NCBI RefSeq assembly: GCF_021190955.1
Contig: NZ_JAIOAO010000002.1
Location: 124,001-188,000, forward strand
Origin: Parachryseolinea silvisoli
Lineage (GTDB): Bacteria; Bacteroidota; Bacteroidia; Cytophagales; Cyclobacteriaceae
Direction: 5' to 3'
DNA length: 64,000 nt
This document shows positions 2,476 to 10,491 of this stretch, one piece after another. The first letter of the stretch is position 1, and every line of letters begins with the position of its first letter. The notes beneath the pieces were generated by a model. It ran no database searches, had not been told where the DNA came from, and worked only from the letters and a program-made list of their open reading frames with translations. Both the position numbers and the translations under genes were made by a program.

Positions 2476-3258
2476 CTAGGGCATTTCTATTTTCTCTTTC
2501 TGCGTAGTGATCACCCGCACCAGTTCATCTGTTTCGTTCTTGCTGAGAGACAATCGCGCGGTAAGCAAGTCTAGAATTTCAATTACAGCTTTTTTAGCAT
2601 CGGCGATCTCCGTGGAGCTTCGTGAGATTGCCCTGCGGTGTTGTTCAATCTCGGCATCAGCAGAATTGTGGCTCGGTTCGTTAATGTTGGCGACAATGCC
2701 CTGTATCCTGTTCAATTTATCAAATACGGTTTTCACGTCATTGGTTAGTGCTACCTTGTTCGTTGGGTCGTTCCATTGATCATCATCCTGTAACTTGGAG
2801 ACGCTTTCATAATAATATTTCATGTCATGCCATGTGGATCGATAGCGGCTGATAATTACTTTCTTTAGGTCGGATGAATTGATGATGGCATTGTGAAGAT
2901 CAGGATCGGTGAGAGCCTGTAGACTGCCAAGCGGATATAGTAACTCCTTGATGTTGGCGTATATCTTCTTCAGCTCGGTCACCTTACCATTGGATTCTTT
3001 AATAGACTTGTTTAAGTTCGTTAGATTGTCGGCGTTGTCTTGCTGCAACTTTTTCAAGGCTTTGTCGACTTCCAGTTGTGTTTTCTCCTTCTGCTTATTT
3101 TTGGCTTCTTTGTTTTCTTTCACCTTGTCAATAACGGCATTGGTACCTTCTACGAGTTTGGGAATGAGTGTGGAGGCAATCAGCGTAATGGGGTCCTGCG
3201 CCTGAATGCGCGTGGCGAATGTCGCCACCAGCATAAACGTGAAGCATGTGAATTTCAT
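2476..3258 (-). CDS. secreted coiled-coil protein of unknown function
   Basis: I do not recognise this 260-residue protein. Residues 1-20 look like a signal peptide with cleavage after Ala-Gln-Ala, so it is probably periplasmic or surface-exposed. Residues 45-105 are rich in Lys, Glu and Gln with heptad-like spacing (KENKEAKNKQKEKTQ), suggesting a coiled coil; the rest is predicted mostly helical and hydrophilic, with no cysteine in the mature part. It is the last gene of a three-gene minus-strand operon, 7 bp after its neighbour, and that neighbour has the same design (signal peptide plus helical body). The operon shares a divergent regulatory region with a two-component system, so it may respond to that system. 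Confidence 0.75.
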   Translation of the reverse strand: MKFTCFTFMLVATFATRIQAQDPITLIASTLIPKLVEGTNAVIDKVKENKEAKNKQKEKTQLEVDKALKKLQQDNADNLTNLNKSIKESNGKVTELKKIYANIKELLYPLGSLQALTDPDLHNAIINSSDLKKVIISRYRSTWHDMKYYYESVSKLQDDDQWNDPTNKVALTNDVKTVFDKLNRIQGIVANINEPSHNSADAEIEQHRRAISRSSTEIADAKKAVIEILDLLTARLSLSKNETDELVRVITTQKEKIEMP

Positions 3259-3265
3259 GGGGATA

Positions 3266-4126
3266 TTATTTTTGGGGTTGTACTGTTTCGGGAACTATTA
3301 GATTTGATTGCAGGATGTTCTGTACAAAAAGATCAACGCAACATTTGCTGAGCGTGCCCGCATTTGGTTTTGATCTCTGGAAATACTGGTACGAGAATCT
3401 TTCTAAAAGATCACGCAATTCTTGAATGCGACTCAAGTCATTCCGCGTGGAGGTAAAATCGACCGGTATCAGGTTATGCACCAAAGAAATTTCATTGCAT
3501 AGTTTGCCCCTGCAGTCGATCACACCCCTGGATAGGTATTTATCTTCCAGGCGGCTGAGTTGATCGCGTAGCGTTGAAATGCGTATCCAGCTATCTCGTA
3601 CGCTCAAAAAAGCGATTTTTACAACGCCGTCATCTATAGACACCGCCGCGCGCTTAACCTGGTCTTCCGTACCAGTGGCACCCAGGAATATAATTTGCTC
3701 GGTGAGATCATTTAGCAGCCGTTGTAAGTTCAGAATCTTTGCGCTACGAATCGCTTGCTCTTCGCTTGTACGGTTCACAAAAGAAAAAGAGATAGATTGT
3801 TCAAGCTCGCCCTTTATCTCAGCTGCTTTCAAAGCAGGATGCAGTGAGTCGAACTTGGTGAGGATCATCTGCTTCACCTGCTCCTTGGCAAGGAGATGCT
3901 GTAATGCGGATCCTTGCAATGCCTGCTTCGCTTCGAAACGCTCAAACTCTTCACGCATGGCTTCGTCTACACCGCGGATTTCCGCCATTTCCAGACGTGC
4001 GTTGTCATATGCCCGCTCAGATCGCTCGCGTGCCTCGCGCGGAGCACTATCGTATTCCCGCTGCTGGGAGGCGCACCGACGTGCGCTAAGCATGATACAG
4101 AAAAACAGCACGATGCGTATTTTCAT
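3266..4126 (-). CDS. secreted helical protein of unknown function
   Basis: Unrecognised 286-residue protein. A short hydrophobic N-terminus (residues 1-20, LFFCIMLSARRCAS) looks like a signal peptide. The next 50 residues are extremely Arg/Glu-rich (REARERSERAYDNARLEMAE), typical of a charged helix or coiled coil. Cysteines appear only in the C-terminal half (CRGKLC and a CC pair near residues 260-262), so a disulfide-bonded C-terminal domain is possible. It is the middle gene of the minus-strand operon: 73 bp after the gene ending at 4200 and 7 bp before the gene starting at 3258. I can assign no function. Confidence 0.72.
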   Translation of the reverse strand: MKIRIVLFFCIMLSARRCASQQREYDSAPREARERSERAYDNARLEMAEIRGVDEAMREEFERFEAKQALQGSALQHLLAKEQVKQMILTKFDSLHPALKAAEIKGELEQSISFSFVNRTSEEQAIRSAKILNLQRLLNDLTEQIIFLGATGTEDQVKRAAVSIDDGVVKIAFLSVRDSWIRISTLRDQLSRLEDKYLSRGVIDCRGKLCNEISLVHNLIPVDFTSTRNDLSRIQELRDLLERFSYQYFQRSKPNAGTLSKCCVDLFVQNILQSNLIVPETVQPQK

Positions 4127-4199: not shown

Positions 4200-5021
4200 C
4201 TAGTCTCTATTCTTTTGCGTAGCCGGTTTGCTGGCCAACTCAAAAATGTTGTATCCGAGCCCAATTCCCAGCCACGGCGAGTCACGGTAGATCCAATCGC
4301 GACCAACTTTACCCGACGGTATATCGAGACCGCCGGAAATACCCAACTGAAAATTGTCGATAAAAAAGATCACCGACAGCGGAATCGACAGGCAGGCCAC
4401 GTTGGTGGCTTCAGAAAGTGTCCCTTTCGTATCTTCTGTTGTCATGGGAACGGAGGTGATGGAGACGCCCGTCATTGGCGCGACAAAGACATTACCACCG
4501 AGTCTCATGCGATACCCGAAGGACACACCCAGATTCACATTGGACGTGAGATCGAAAAAGCGATCTTTACCGTCACCGAAACGCATTTTGATAGGCGTGG
4601 TAATGGCACCGAGGAGAAACCCTGCCCGTGGCAACTCATCGGCAGGCAGCGCCTTGTTGGCCAGGTTTGCCGCCGAAAGCTTGAAATATAGCCGTTGATT
4701 TTCGTCTGCTTTGGCTACACCCGACACCATTTGTGTAGTATATACATATTTAAGATTACTGTCCGAGCTTTTATCTCCTCTCCATTCGAGGAATGAGATG
4801 ACAACCGCGCTGTGATCGCTCATGATCCTTTCGACTTTAAATTTATAGCCGCTCTTGGCAATCATATTATTTGTACCAGGTGCCACCGTGCCATCCAGGA
4901 CACACGGTGTTATCTCGCTATCTTCAATAAACTGATAGAACAGTTTGAAGTCTTGCGCTGGGGCGTATAGTACACTTCCTGTCAGAAGGGTCGCGATGAG
5001 GAGTAGAACTTGTATTTTCAT
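4200..5021 (-). CDS. secreted protein of unknown function, possible outer-membrane beta-structure
   Basis: Unrecognised 273-residue protein and first gene of the minus-strand operon. Residues 1-22 form a signal peptide ending Ala-Pro-Ala-Gln. The mature N-terminal half (to about residue 125) carries mixed beta-type sequence, with a cysteine in EITPCVLDG. The second half alternates glycine and aromatic residues as in membrane beta-strands (GVSFGYRMRLGGNVFVAP, IFFIDNFQLGISGGLDIP, LGIGLGYNIFEL). It may therefore sit in the outer membrane and hold the two helical proteins encoded downstream, but this is inference. The start at 5021 follows a -7 box TAGCTTTG at 5086-5093 by about 65 bp. Confidence 0.75.
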   Translation of the reverse strand: MKIQVLLLIATLLTGSVLYAPAQDFKLFYQFIEDSEITPCVLDGTVAPGTNNMIAKSGYKFKVERIMSDHSAVVISFLEWRGDKSSDSNLKYVYTTQMVSGVAKADENQRLYFKLSAANLANKALPADELPRAGFLLGAITTPIKMRFGDGKDRFFDLTSNVNLGVSFGYRMRLGGNVFVAPMTGVSITSVPMTTEDTKGTLSEATNVACLSIPLSVIFFIDNFQLGISGGLDIPSGKVGRDWIYRDSPWLGIGLGYNIFELASKPATQKNRD

Positions 5022-5085: not shown

Positions 5086-5117
5086 CAAAGCTAGAGACTA
5101 TACATGGGGATGATCAA
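5086..5117 (-). promoter_or_regulatory. promoter of the secreted-protein operon
   Basis: Minus-strand -33 TTG at 5117-5115 and -7 box TAGCTTTG at 5093-5086, separated by 21 nt. The TTG directly abuts the palindrome at 5116-5135. The predicted transcript starts near 5080, giving a leader of about 58 nt. Confidence 0.65.
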
Positions 5118-5135
5118 TACCTAGCTGGTGGTATT
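5116..5135. repeat. operator-like palindrome 1, AATACC-N8-GGTATT
   Basis: Perfect 6-8-6 inverted repeat overlapping the -33 element of the leftward promoter. It is nearly identical to palindrome 2 at 5200-5219; the spacers are TAGCTGGT and TCCTGGTG. Centre-to-centre distance is 84 bp, which is eight turns of B-DNA. Probably the binding site of a shared dimeric regulator, most simply the response regulator at 7317-7931. Confidence 0.7.
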
Positions 5136-5199
5136 CGAAAAGATAATATGAATACCCAGGGCCACAGTTAAAAAAACAATATCTTGGTAGCAGTGAGAG

Positions 5200-5219
5200 A
5201 ATACCTCCTGGTGGGTATT
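5200..5219. repeat. operator-like palindrome 2, AATACC-N8-GGTATT
   Basis: Second copy of the 6-8-6 palindrome, overlapping the -33 TTG (5218-5220) of the rightward promoter. The two copies are related by symmetry relative to their own promoters: each ends in GGTATTG, whose TTG is the -33 element. A lone half-site, AATACC, also lies at 5151-5156. Confidence 0.7.
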
Positions 5220-5249
5220 GGAGCTGGTATGGGCTAACCATTAATTTCG
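5218..5249 (+). promoter_or_regulatory. promoter of the lipoprotein / two-component operon
   Basis: The -33 TTG at 5218-5220 and the -7 box TAATTTCG at 5242-5249 are 21 nt apart, exactly the spacing of the divergent promoter. TTCG in place of TTTG is also seen before ruvB. The leader to the ATG at 5286 would be about 30 nt. Confidence 0.6.
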
Positions 5250-5285
5250 ATCCCTCTAACAAAAAAACACTAACCCTTATATTTT

Positions 5286-5906
5286 ATGAAACCTACCTTT
5301 CTCGTTCCCTTTGCAAGTTTACTACTGATGGTGACGCTGTCTGCCTGTCCAGGCAAAAAAGAGGACAGTGCCCGTACAACAGCGTCTGCAGGAGGCGATT
5401 CACTGAAAGCCTTGTTCCAGGTACTGCCGCATCCCGACTCTAACAAGGCGTTGCTAAACCGACTTTGCGCCCTACGCGTGATGGATCCGGATCGGGGCGA
5501 GGCAATAGACTCATTACGGGCAGCGCGCAAGATCAGGGCCTATAAAGATTTTATGAGCCAGGCGGCAGAGGAAGCCGGTTATGAATATAGGGCAGAAAAC
5601 GATGCCTATGGTTTTTCATTCGGCATTAACACGCTAAACGAAATGGTACAGGCCATCAACCGATATAACGTTGCTCATCCCAACGACGCTGTTGCGGGCA
5701 TCCGTATCTATATGGGACGCGCCGTACATGAAGGCCAGCAGATGAATGATGTCTTGCTGATGCCCGTACTGAAAAGCGGCCACAACTTCTACAATATAGA
5801 TCCTGATTTTACTAAAGCGAAAATATTTCTTAATGAAAAGATTCACAAAGACATTCCACCGCCCATGTACAACACTTCTGCCCCCTGTCCTAACCGGTGC
5901 CAATAG
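5286..5906 (+). CDS. lipoprotein of unknown function
   Basis: 206-residue protein with an N-terminal signal (residues 1-20) and a clear lipobox, LSAC, so it should be a lipid-anchored envelope protein with its mature N-terminus at Cys21. A short low-complexity linker (KKEDSARTTASAGGDS) precedes a globular domain of about 165 residues that I do not recognise. The last stretch is Pro/Cys-rich (CPNRC near the C-terminus) and could form a disulfide. First gene of the plus-strand operon, 3 bp before the multi-TM gene. It may act as a sensory partner for the membrane protein and kinase, but this rests only on gene order. Confidence 0.75.
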   Translation: MKPTFLVPFASLLLMVTLSACPGKKEDSARTTASAGGDSLKALFQVLPHPDSNKALLNRLCALRVMDPDRGEAIDSLRAARKIRAYKDFMSQAAEEAGYEYRAENDAYGFSFGINTLNEMVQAINRYNVAHPNDAVAGIRIYMGRAVHEGQQMNDVLLMPVLKSGHNFYNIDPDFTKAKIFLNEKIHKDIPPPMYNTSAPCPNRCQ

Positions 5907-5909
5907 CCT

Positions 5910-6554
5910 ATGCTCGACGATGTGTTAATGTATGGCTCCATTTTCTCGCCGTTGCCCGGTCTGTTGATCGGGCAACGGCACTGGCGGGCGTATGCCACGA
6001 TCATCCGCACAATACTATTCGTTGTATTGCTATCCTTTCTCAGTGATGTTGTGATGCTGGCGTTACTCATGAACAGCATCCCCAACATGCCTGTCGCGAA
6101 TATATATGGTCTGACCGAGGGTCTGTTATTCTCCTACTTCTTTTACTTGCGGCTGACGCCGTATCGAAAGTTCATCGTGTCCATCGCCGTGATCTTTGCA
6201 CTTCTCTACCTGGCCGATGTGATCCTCGTAACACACTTGATGTCGTTCAACGCATATTCCCGTACCCTCGAAGCTGGCATCATGATTTTGTTCTCAACCC
6301 TATATTTTTACAGCATCTTCCAGAACGAAACGGATATCTTTATCGATAAAAGCTCGGAGTTTTGGATTGTGGTGGGCATACTCTTCTACTTTTCGGGTGC
6401 ATTCTTTTCTTTTCTACTGTCAACGGATATTTTATCTTTATCTCCGGATCGATTCTATAGTTCCTGGATCCTGCACAACATTTCAAATATTATTAAGAAC
6501 ATCATTTTTACCGCGGCACTATGGAAGGCAGTACCGAACTCAGGCATGAAGTAA
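5910..6554 (+). CDS. multi-pass membrane protein of unknown function
   Basis: 214-residue integral membrane protein with about six or seven hydrophobic segments (roughly residues 25-55, 64-84, 88-113, 122-140, 150-172 and 180-205) and short loops. No catalytic motif is visible. The reading frame overlaps the downstream histidine kinase start by 34 bp, so the two are probably translated together and may form one sensor: the kinase itself has only one TM helix and no sensing domain. Similar membrane proteins are often encoded beside LuxR-type two-component genes in Cytophagales (general recollection, not checked). Confidence 0.75.
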   Translation: MLDDVLMYGSIFSPLPGLLIGQRHWRAYATIIRTILFVVLLSFLSDVVMLALLMNSIPNMPVANIYGLTEGLLFSYFFYLRLTPYRKFIVSIAVIFALLYLADVILVTHLMSFNAYSRTLEAGIMILFSTLYFYSIFQNETDIFIDKSSEFWIVVGILFYFSGAFFSFLLSTDILSLSPDRFYSSWILHNISNIIKNIIFTAALWKAVPNSGMK

Positions 6555-7315
6555 TCCTTATCGCCGGATCGTTTGGAATGTTGTTCCTCACCTCGGCCAT
6601 CACCACGTTCATTTACCTCTACCAACGGAAACTGATCAAACGCAAGCTGGCCTACCAGGAAATCGAGGATCTATTGCGACGTCAGGAACTGCGCTCGGCC
6701 TACGCTTTGTTAGACGGGCAGGATATGGAACGGCAGCGCATCGCCGAAGAGCTGCACGACAACCTCGGCAGCCTGCTGGTAACACTTACCATGTACGTCG
6801 ACACTTCACTTAAAAGTGAAAAAACAGATTTTCAATGGCAGTTTGCAGAATCAATCAGTAAACTCGCCCACCAGGCCAATGAGGAAGTACGAAAGATTTC
6901 ACATCGACTGGACTCGGCGGCACTTAAGCACTTTGGATTTCGGCAGGCTGTGAAAGATCTTGTCCAGGTTGTTAGTGACAGCGGATCGGTTCGTGTGCAC
7001 TGCACACTGGAATTGAATGCCGACGTGCAGACAGAAGTCAGTATAAATTTATACCGAATTCTACAGGAGCTCATCAACAACACGCTCAAGCACGCACGGG
7101 CCACCGAGATCGATGTGACCATCACCCAGGTAAAAACCGAATACCTAAGTGTGATCTATGAAGACAACGGTGTTGGTATCCAGTCCCCACTTACGCAGGC
7201 GAACGGTATCGGCCTGCGTAACATCGCTACACGCGTGGAGAAGATGGGGGGCACACTCCACATCGGCAATAAAGGAAAGAATGGCTTTGCTATGACACTG
7301 GAAATCCCCCTATAA
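6521..7315 (+). CDS. sensor histidine kinase, NarL/DesK type
   Basis: 264-residue kinase. One TM helix (residues 10-33) is followed by a short linker and a HisKA_3 dimerisation domain with phospho-acceptor His in ERQRIAEELHDNLGS (His about residue 79). A HATPase_c domain follows, with N-box ELINNTLKHA, G1 box DNGVGI and GIGLRNIATRVEKMGG. There is no periplasmic or PAS sensing domain, so input probably comes from the overlapping membrane protein or the lipoprotein. The gene ends one base before the response regulator start, as expected for a cognate pair. The ATG at 6521 lies inside the previous gene; no better start exists before the TM helix. Confidence 0.92.
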   Translation: MEGSTELRHEVILIAGSFGMLFLTSAITTFIYLYQRKLIKRKLAYQEIEDLLRRQELRSAYALLDGQDMERQRIAEELHDNLGSLLVTLTMYVDTSLKSEKTDFQWQFAESISKLAHQANEEVRKISHRLDSAALKHFGFRQAVKDLVQVVSDSGSVRVHCTLELNADVQTEVSINLYRILQELINNTLKHARATEIDVTITQVKTEYLSVIYEDNGVGIQSPLTQANGIGLRNIATRVEKMGGTLHIGNKGKNGFAMTLEIPL

Positions 7316-7316
7316 A

Positions 7317-7931
7317 ATGAAAATCAAAGTTCTGTTGGCCGACGATCACGCCATCGTACTAGAGGGGCTACGGGCCGTCCTGAGTGCCCATGACGGTATT
7401 GAAGTATGCGGCGAAGCCAGTAACGGTGAGCAGGTGCTCCAGTTCCTCGCGAGGCAGCACGCTGACATTATCGTGCTCGACATCAATATGCCTGTTATGA
7501 ACGGTATCAAGTGCGCGGAGAAAGTCAAGGCCAAGTACCCCGCGGTAAAAATCTTGATCCTCACGATGTATGCACAAAAATCGTTTCTGGAAGAGATCAT
7601 TCGTATCGGTATTGAAGGCTGTCTGCTGAAAAGTAATACCGGTAAAGAGTTGAGCGACGCAATTATACGTGTAATGGAGGGCAAATCGTACTTCGATTTG
7701 ATCCAGTCATTTTGTACAGATGAAAACGAAACTACCTCTTTCAAGCTTAGCGACCGAGAAATAGAGATCGTGAAACTTCTGTGCGAGGGACTGACCAGCA
7801 CGCAGATCGCTGAAAAGCTTTTCATTGCAGACCAAACTGTCAAGACTCACCGCAAAAACATTCTGCGCAAAATAGGGGCGCACAACACGTCGCAATTGGT
7901 GCAATTTGCGCTGAACAACCGGATTATTTAA
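7317..7931 (+). CDS. response regulator, NarL/LuxR family
   Basis: 204-residue two-domain transcription factor. The receiver domain has the acidic pair Asp9-Asp10, phosphorylatable Asp55 (VLDINMP) and the conserved Lys in CLLKSN. The C-terminal LuxR helix-turn-helix covers about residues 140-200 (LSDREIEIVKLLCEGLTSTQIAEKL; VKTHRKNILRKIG). It is the last gene of the operon, one base after the kinase. NarL-type regulators bind short inverted repeats as dimers, so the paired AATACC-N8-GGTATT sites in front of this operon and of the divergent operon are its natural candidate targets; that link is inferred. Confidence 0.93.
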   Translation: MKIKVLLADDHAIVLEGLRAVLSAHDGIEVCGEASNGEQVLQFLARQHADIIVLDINMPVMNGIKCAEKVKAKYPAVKILILTMYAQKSFLEEIIRIGIEGCLLKSNTGKELSDAIIRVMEGKSYFDLIQSFCTDENETTSFKLSDREIEIVKLLCEGLTSTQIAEKLFIADQTVKTHRKNILRKIGAHNTSQLVQFALNNRII

Positions 7932-9321: not shown

Positions 9322-10491
9322 ATGAAGAAGATCGTATTTCTGTTGTTGGGCTGCATAGCCCTGCAAGGCTACTCCCAACCCCGCCAGTTGTCCGACCGGG
9401 CCACTATTTCGGTCATCACCTGCGCCCCCTGGCAAGGCGAGCTGTACTCGGCATTTGGCCATAGTGCTTTTCGCGTATATGACCCCGCACTCGGGCTCGA
9501 TGACGCCTATAACTACGGCATCTTCGACTTCGACCAACCCAACTTCTACCTGAACTTTGCGCGGGGCTATATGTATTACCAATTGGGTGCCTATTCTTAT
9601 GAACGTTTTAAGCTTCCCTATATTTACCACAACCGGTATATACACGAGCAGGAGCTGAACCTGACACCCGCACAAAAACAAAAAGTATTCGACTACCTGG
9701 AGTGGAACACCTTGCCGGAAAACGAGCACTATCGCTACGACTACTTCTACGACAACTGCGCCACCAAGATGCCGGGTGTGCTGATCAAAGCCCTCGGCGA
9801 CAGCATAGCTTTCGACGATAAACACATTACGACGCACTATTCCATTCGCGAATTGACGGACCTATACCTCCATCAGCAACCGTGGGGTGATCTGGGCATC
9901 GATGTTTGCCTCGGCTCCGAGATAGATCGCGAAGCGCCACCCTTCGACTATATGTTCCTGCCGGAATATGTCGAGCAAGGTCTTGACCATGCTACGATCA
10001 AACACGGCAACAGGTGGGCGCCACTGGTGAAGAAGAAAAATATTGTTTTTGCTCCGCGGGATGAAGATCCTGTGAAGGGTCTCCCCCATCCGCTCTATGT
10101 GTTCAGTGCGCTGGCGCTGGTTGCGATTATACTCTCGGTGGTGGATCTGAAACGGAAAAAATTATCGACGTGGTGGGATGTGTTACTGTTCGGTGCAGCC
10201 GGCCTGATCGGTGTGCTGTTGTTTGTGCTGTGGTTCGCCACGGACCACAAGTCGTCGTATAACTACAATTTATTGTGGGCGCTGCCTTTCCACATTATCG
10301 CCGTGATCGCGTTTATACGCCAGCCACGCTGGCTGACAACCTACTTCCTCGTGACAGCCATCCTCCTGGTCGTGACCCTGGTAAGCTGGCCGGTGTTGCC
10401 GCAGAAGCTCAACACATCACTTATACCCGTAGTCATTGCGCTGGCGGTACGGGCCTTTACGCAGTACCGTGTTCGCAAGGCAAAAGCATAG
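9322..10491 (+). CDS. DUF4105 domain membrane protein
   Basis: 389-residue protein. A signal peptide (residues 1-18) precedes a DUF4105/Lnb N-terminal-type periplasmic domain (about residues 28-190) with the conserved motifs SAFGHSAFRV and DNCATKMP; the His and Cys in these are candidate catalytic residues of a papain-like fold. The C-terminal part has four to five TM helices (about residues 258-380). Members of this family are widespread in Bacteroidota and poorly characterised; a role in envelope or lipoprotein processing has been suggested for related proteins. A strong terminator follows at 10511. Confidence 0.85.
   Translation: MKKIVFLLLGCIALQGYSQPRQLSDRATISVITCAPWQGELYSAFGHSAFRVYDPALGLDDAYNYGIFDFDQPNFYLNFARGYMYYQLGAYSYERFKLPYIYHNRYIHEQELNLTPAQKQKVFDYLEWNTLPENEHYRYDYFYDNCATKMPGVLIKALGDSIAFDDKHITTHYSIRELTDLYLHQQPWGDLGIDVCLGSEIDREAPPFDYMFLPEYVEQGLDHATIKHGNRWAPLVKKKNIVFAPRDEDPVKGLPHPLYVFSALALVAIILSVVDLKRKKLSTWWDVLLFGAAGLIGVLLFVLWFATDHKSSYNYNLLWALPFHIIAVIAFIRQPRWLTTYFLVTAILLVVTLVSWPVLPQKLNTSLIPVVIALAVRAFTQYRVRKAKA

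Follow-up and report, generated by a model that had tools for sequence, protein, structure and literature searches.

Within the 64,000 nucleotides of Parachryseolinea silvisoli DNA analysed here (hereafter the window), we identified a two-component operon that probably activates its own transcription through its NarL-type response regulator, and with it that of a divergent leftward gene set, by way of two NarL-like operators that seem to take the place of the -33 promoter element. We interpret the locus as most likely an autoregulating NarL-type switch, a further case of a known kind of system. It supplies a concrete candidate operator, promoter position and regulator for one Bacteroidota two-component system, and a search of the open-licence literature turned up no published description of a motif bound by a NarL-type regulator in this bacterial group, a result that is not proof of absence. 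As we envisage it, a membrane signal, probably sensed with the help of a lipoprotein and a membrane protein, would lead the kinase to phosphorylate the regulator, whose dimer would then bind each palindrome at about -44.5 of each promoter. The palindrome would stand in for the -33 box, with the dimer helping RNA polymerase at the TAnnTTTG -7 box, such that the regulator's own operon would be positively autoregulated and the leftward three-gene set co-activated.

The operator pair consists of two exact matches to AATACC-N8-GGTATT, AATACCTAGCTGGTGGTATT at 5116-5135 and AATACCTCCTGGTGGGTATT at 5200-5219, palindromes that have no strand of their own and lie 84 bp apart between two promoters that face away from each other. 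The left operator is oriented toward the -7 box of the leftward promoter, TAGCTTTG (5093-5086, minus strand), which carries 6 of the 6 fixed bases of TAnnTTTG, and the right operator belongs to the promoter of the rightward lipoprotein-kinase-regulator operon, where the -7 box TAATTTCG (5242-5249, plus strand) carries 5 of the 6. Overlapping the promoter-facing end of each operator is a TTG in the -33 position (5117-5115 on the minus strand and 5218-5220 on the plus strand), and because 21 nt separate the TTG from the box on both sides, each GGTATT lies 22 nt from its own -7 box. The symmetric pair with equidistant, outward-pointing -7 boxes that had been set out in the preliminary description was thus recovered in full. 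An unpaired half-site close to 5151, GAATACCC, was taken as chance.

Four plus-strand ORFs make up the rightward operon: a 206-aa lipoprotein-like protein as its first gene (5286-5906), a 214-aa membrane protein with three hydrophobic stretches above threshold that is a probable sensor partner (5910-6554), a sensor histidine kinase with HisKA_3 and HATPase_c Pfam domains and one membrane helix predicted from hydropathy (6521-7315), and the NarL/LuxR-type response regulator that we propose as the reader of both operators (7317-7931). The first two have no Pfam match. On the minus strand, the leftward set comprises a 273-aa protein with a hydrophobic N-terminus by hydropathy and a weak DUF2715 match below the cut-off (4200-5021), a 286-aa protein with no significant Pfam family (3266-4126) and a 260-aa protein with sub-threshold Pfam matches only, the best being to a coiled-coil family (2476-3258), and these three genes may form one operon. 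The first leftward protein has partial relatives only, in 3 of 6 other genomes of the genus. The lipoprotein-like or membrane-anchored protein, adjoining the membrane protein and kinase, ends in NTSAPCPNRC, and its counterparts make NxSxPCPxxC the C-terminal motif at 18 of 20 loci, L184 and L191 having variants of it; used as a query for related loci it found none, and it had no match in two other members of the genus that were sampled.

Evaluating the rarity of the motif, we found that the exact pattern occurs in the window at these two sites only, where an independent-base model expects 0.0033 exact sites per 64 kb and about 2e-8 pairs no more than 100 bp apart. Allowing two mismatches raised the number of matches in the window to 8 (1.65 expected), a count reached by 0 of 100 shuffles. 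The 7.95 Mb genome contains 5 exact places in all versus 0 for a reversed-pattern control, the other 3 lying within a 345-aa ORF, within a 762-aa ORF and across the start codon of a 128-aa ORF, and 53 places with at most one mismatch versus 13 for the control. When the exact pattern was coupled to a TAnnTT box, one match per strand was left in this genome, namely these two sites, and with the stricter TAnnTTTG the left site alone remained. The motif is therefore not frequent at unrelated sites in its own genome, a point on which the preliminary description had made its reading depend, but related genomes commonly carry it at other promoters, as described below.

We then drew on related genomes, searching 390 genomes of the family for the membrane protein (a match in 108) and comparing 42 loci, made up of 40 listed membrane-protein places, mostly the best-scoring, and the loci of G084 and G141. 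At 19 of the 42 the regulator is 52-68% identical to that of the window and the order membrane protein, kinase, regulator is the same, with the kinase and regulator of L185 lying further downstream than elsewhere; the 23 comparison loci have either a paralogous regulator (17 loci, 29-39% identity) or none that was found (6 loci). The stretch scanned covered positions -900 to -550 relative to the membrane protein gene, about where the lipoprotein gene begins, and revealed a palindrome before the operon at 17 of the 19 orthologous loci with at most two mismatches, at 15 with at most one and at 4 as an exact match, where a Markov model expects 2.4% (up to two mismatches) and 0.1% (up to one). At L178 (G008) and L185 (G256) the orthologous regulator is present with no palindrome in the scanned stretch. 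None of the 23 comparison loci has a palindrome in that stretch (covered at L197 by a short stretch only), nor in a wider interval from 1000 bases before to 50 after the membrane protein gene start. The contrast of 17/19 with 0/23 gives a Fisher p of 7e-10 with loci taken as independent, a value that overstates their independence because they are related by descent. The orthologues were also chosen from the top of a long match list, so that with shared ancestry the tracking of the clade is not independent for each locus. Judged from these sequences, the palindrome constitutes a phylogenetic footprint linked to this clade of regulators, and the conservation in homologous loci that had been put forward as a check was found.

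This distribution among loci supports the earlier proposals that the palindromes are part of the promoters, that one dimeric regulator probably reads both, and that the best candidate for that role is the NarL-type response regulator encoded in the operon itself. The window regulator combines a Response_reg receiver with a C-terminal GerE helix-turn-helix, both above the Pfam curated cut-offs, which places it in the NarL/FixJ group. Five of its residues (D9, D10, D55, T83 and K105), which we take to be the conserved phospho-acceptor aspartate and catalytic residues of response regulators, are invariant in it and in two orthologous regulators. Its recognition helix reads TVKTHRKNIL, and THR[K/R]N at this position is found in 20 of 20 regulators of the window's clade and 0 of 17 paralogous regulators, as well as in 13 of 15 GerE proteins from 14 regions selected around further sites of this type (of the 15, two lie 2 and 4.7 kb from their site); THRKN is a common LuxR-type helix sequence.

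The sites themselves resemble those of NarL. An engineered NarL 7-2-7 site is quoted in an excerpted study as TACCCCTAAAGGGGTA (PMC4549865); TACC-N8-GGTA fits it, and the half-sites and spacing equal those of the 7-2-7 site, with both window sites made of inverted TAC heptamers two bp apart (TAC-N10-GTA). The excerpted descriptions of E. coli NarL operators and promoters (ogt1052, yeaR) share with our locus the TACC half-sites, the TAC-N10-GTA spacing, a NarL-type two-component regulator and an operator centred, here by prediction, in the region of -43 to -45, some 32 bp away from the -10/-7 element, whereas here the promoter has a TAnnTTTG -7 box rather than -10/-35 elements and there is an extra AA/TT outside the NarL core. 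E. coli and Bacteroidota, although their sigma factors differ, may thus have the NarL half-site and an activating position in common. In sequence the regulator is closer to VraR, DesR, ChrA and DevR than to NarL, all five being among its best PDB sequence matches with VraR the best. LiaFSR/VraSR-type systems, in which autoregulation is typical, likewise place a membrane protein, a short-sensor HisKA_3 kinase and a NarL-type regulator in one operon; they differ in that the membrane protein and CPxxC lipoprotein here match no Pfam family.

Beyond these loci, the unit AATACC-N8-GGTATTG-N18-22-TAnnTT occurs in 132 of the 390 family genomes (reversed control in 2, G001 and G132), so the window locus is one case of a wider promoter type; in a sample of the phylum outside the family, 5 of 143 genomes have a match. 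With the inner distance left free between 2 and 14 (108 genomes), it was exactly 8 at 110 of 122 sites among the matches listed, and 96 of those 110 have 21 nt to the -7 box. We examined 83 sites in 79 regions: 66 of the sites are followed on their own strand by the start of an ORF no more than 400 bp away, and 5 fall within an ORF longer than 150 aa. Genes for GerE proteins, identified with a profile built for this analysis, are enriched close to the sites (12 of 223 ORFs within 1 kb versus 8 of 1168 beyond; p = 8e-6), although six of the 12 come from one genus with the same arrangement and counting them once gives p = 0.005. Pfam searches of 62 of the 66 proteins directly downstream (4 were excluded for length) returned a receiver plus GerE in 6 and otherwise mixed families, and these six are presumably the six regulators found by the GerE profile. 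Since 61 of the 79 regions yielded no GerE gene in the profile search, similar sites could also be read by another regulator. In one genus (L067, L072, L074, L076, L081 and L082), the operator sits at the end of the kinase gene, directly 5' of the NarL-type regulator gene.

These family-wide observations bear on the idea that the sites at our locus are read by some other transcription factor, whose gene lies elsewhere and which has the operon among its targets, a view that the number of genomes with the motif and -7 box and the many regions lacking a GerE gene would favour. We consider it rather unlikely, given that the exact promoter-linked motif is confined to this locus in its own genome, that the palindrome accompanies orthologues of the regulator but not paralogues, and that the geometry of the sites fits a NarL-type dimer. 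In a broader view, one that we hold with evenly balanced confidence, several NarL/LuxR-type subfamilies in the family would share a TACC-N8-GGTA operator code whose inner bases vary and which stands in for the -33 element at a fixed distance of about 21 nt from TAnnTTTG, forming a distinct, genome-readable class of activator-dependent promoters, some perhaps driving small RNAs. The pattern yields many candidate activator-dependent promoters in the family that can be read from sequence. A second site type, with AATACCC/GGGTATT halves, a T run and a -7 box at 21 nt, was seen several times per genome in G001, G040, G043, G047, G085, G096 and others, and looks like a separate, larger regulon. Several sites in G268, G279, G205 and G036 share an identical or almost identical inner sequence (AATACCCAAGGTTGGGTATT), which suggests one regulator with many targets in that genus.

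Turning to promoter geometry, we aligned 24 sites from the window and orthologues on GGTATT and found a mean match to TAnnTTTG of 4.58 of 6 at an offset of 21, compared with 1.0-2.9 at all other offsets from 8 to 44; the two window sites, at 22 nt, lie one position from this peak. A -7 box with 5 or 6 of the 6 bases falls 20-22 nt past GGTATT at 17 of the 24 sites, and the remaining 7 have 4 of 6, which is weak alone. As to the -33 element, the preliminary description had assigned this role to the TTG, and while a TTG is present in both window promoters it is not a fixed box, because over the 24 sites GGTATT is followed by G, T or C; what is kept is the end of the palindrome. Compared with the Bacteroidota sigma-A promoter as excerpted sources give it (TAnnTTTG at -7, TTTG near -33), the -7 box is common to both window sites, whereas the -33 element is apparently replaced by the operator end. 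Since the TTG is not conserved, the palindrome seems to replace the -33 element, which argues for activation.

The predicted position of the operators is consistent with activation as well. In promoters of Flavobacterium psychrophilum, an excerpted account places the -7 box at -12 to -5 (PMC9723704), which by analogy predicts starts near 5254 and 5081 and centres both palindromes at -44.5, in the class II-type range near -41 to -45 that overlaps the -35/-33 region; between the operator centre and the first base of the -7 box there are 32.5 bp. A study of the ogt1052 promoter describes a single NarL site at -44.5, 32 bp from the -10 element, as sufficient there, and reports that a single site also worked at -66.5 and -77.5 in sister promoters (PMC9314961). 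The same overlap with the -33 region could instead mean that the regulator binds but represses, blocking polymerase over the -33 region with the signal either relieving or strengthening the block, and NarL itself represses at frdA according to an excerpt (PMC4549865). We regard repression as unlikely: with a -33 TTG that is not conserved, promoters lacking an activator should be weak, and the narrow range of operator-to-box distances is what contact with polymerase would demand.

To place the pairing of operators in context, paired sites were found at 5 of 20 loci, 84 bp apart in the window and 48, 124, 138 and 144 bp apart in G084, G174, G301 and G057, respectively, with the distal sites of G174 and G057 having two mismatches each. 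In the scanned stretch the other 15 show a single site at most (a second two-mismatch match 25 bp away in L181 was not counted as making a pair). Each distal site has its own -7 box pointing outward, leading to the three leftward ORFs in the window and to a similar protein of 129-136 aa in both G174 and G057, with no clear ORF on the distal side in G084 and G301; in G141 a second exact site sits before the upstream neighbour gene. From these comparisons, a nearby second target appears to recur among loci and the eight-turn spacing does not. The 84 bp do amount to 8.0 helical turns by arithmetic, and the preliminary description had given this phasing special meaning, but the spacing is not conserved between loci and we discarded it as a functional signal. 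A DNA loop or helical-phase contact between dimers that locks the two operons together, which could coexist with activation by the operon's own regulator and would draw on those whole turns, is for that reason very unlikely: the spacings of the other pairs are not all whole turns, and most loci show no pair within the scanned stretch.

That the palindromes are RNA hairpins, terminators or chance can be set aside as highly improbable, for although they are inverted repeats and runs of T follow many family sites, a hairpin loop has no need of the nearly constant inner distance of 8, on which ground we rejected hairpins and terminators, the sites lie 5' of the -7 box, outside what their own promoter would transcribe, and chance does not yield a palindrome at 17 of 19 orthologous loci.

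Two of the distal sites lead into short units of another kind. At L100 (G084, about 10019-10144), no clear ORF follows the distal operator and -7 box, but a GC hairpin and T-run resembling a terminator lie no more than about 120 nt on, making this unit a candidate small RNA under the same regulator. At L173 (G301), the distal site (position -829 relative to the membrane protein gene) heads an outward promoter-like unit with no evident ORF, and a strong hairpin lies about 60-90 nt past its -7 box.
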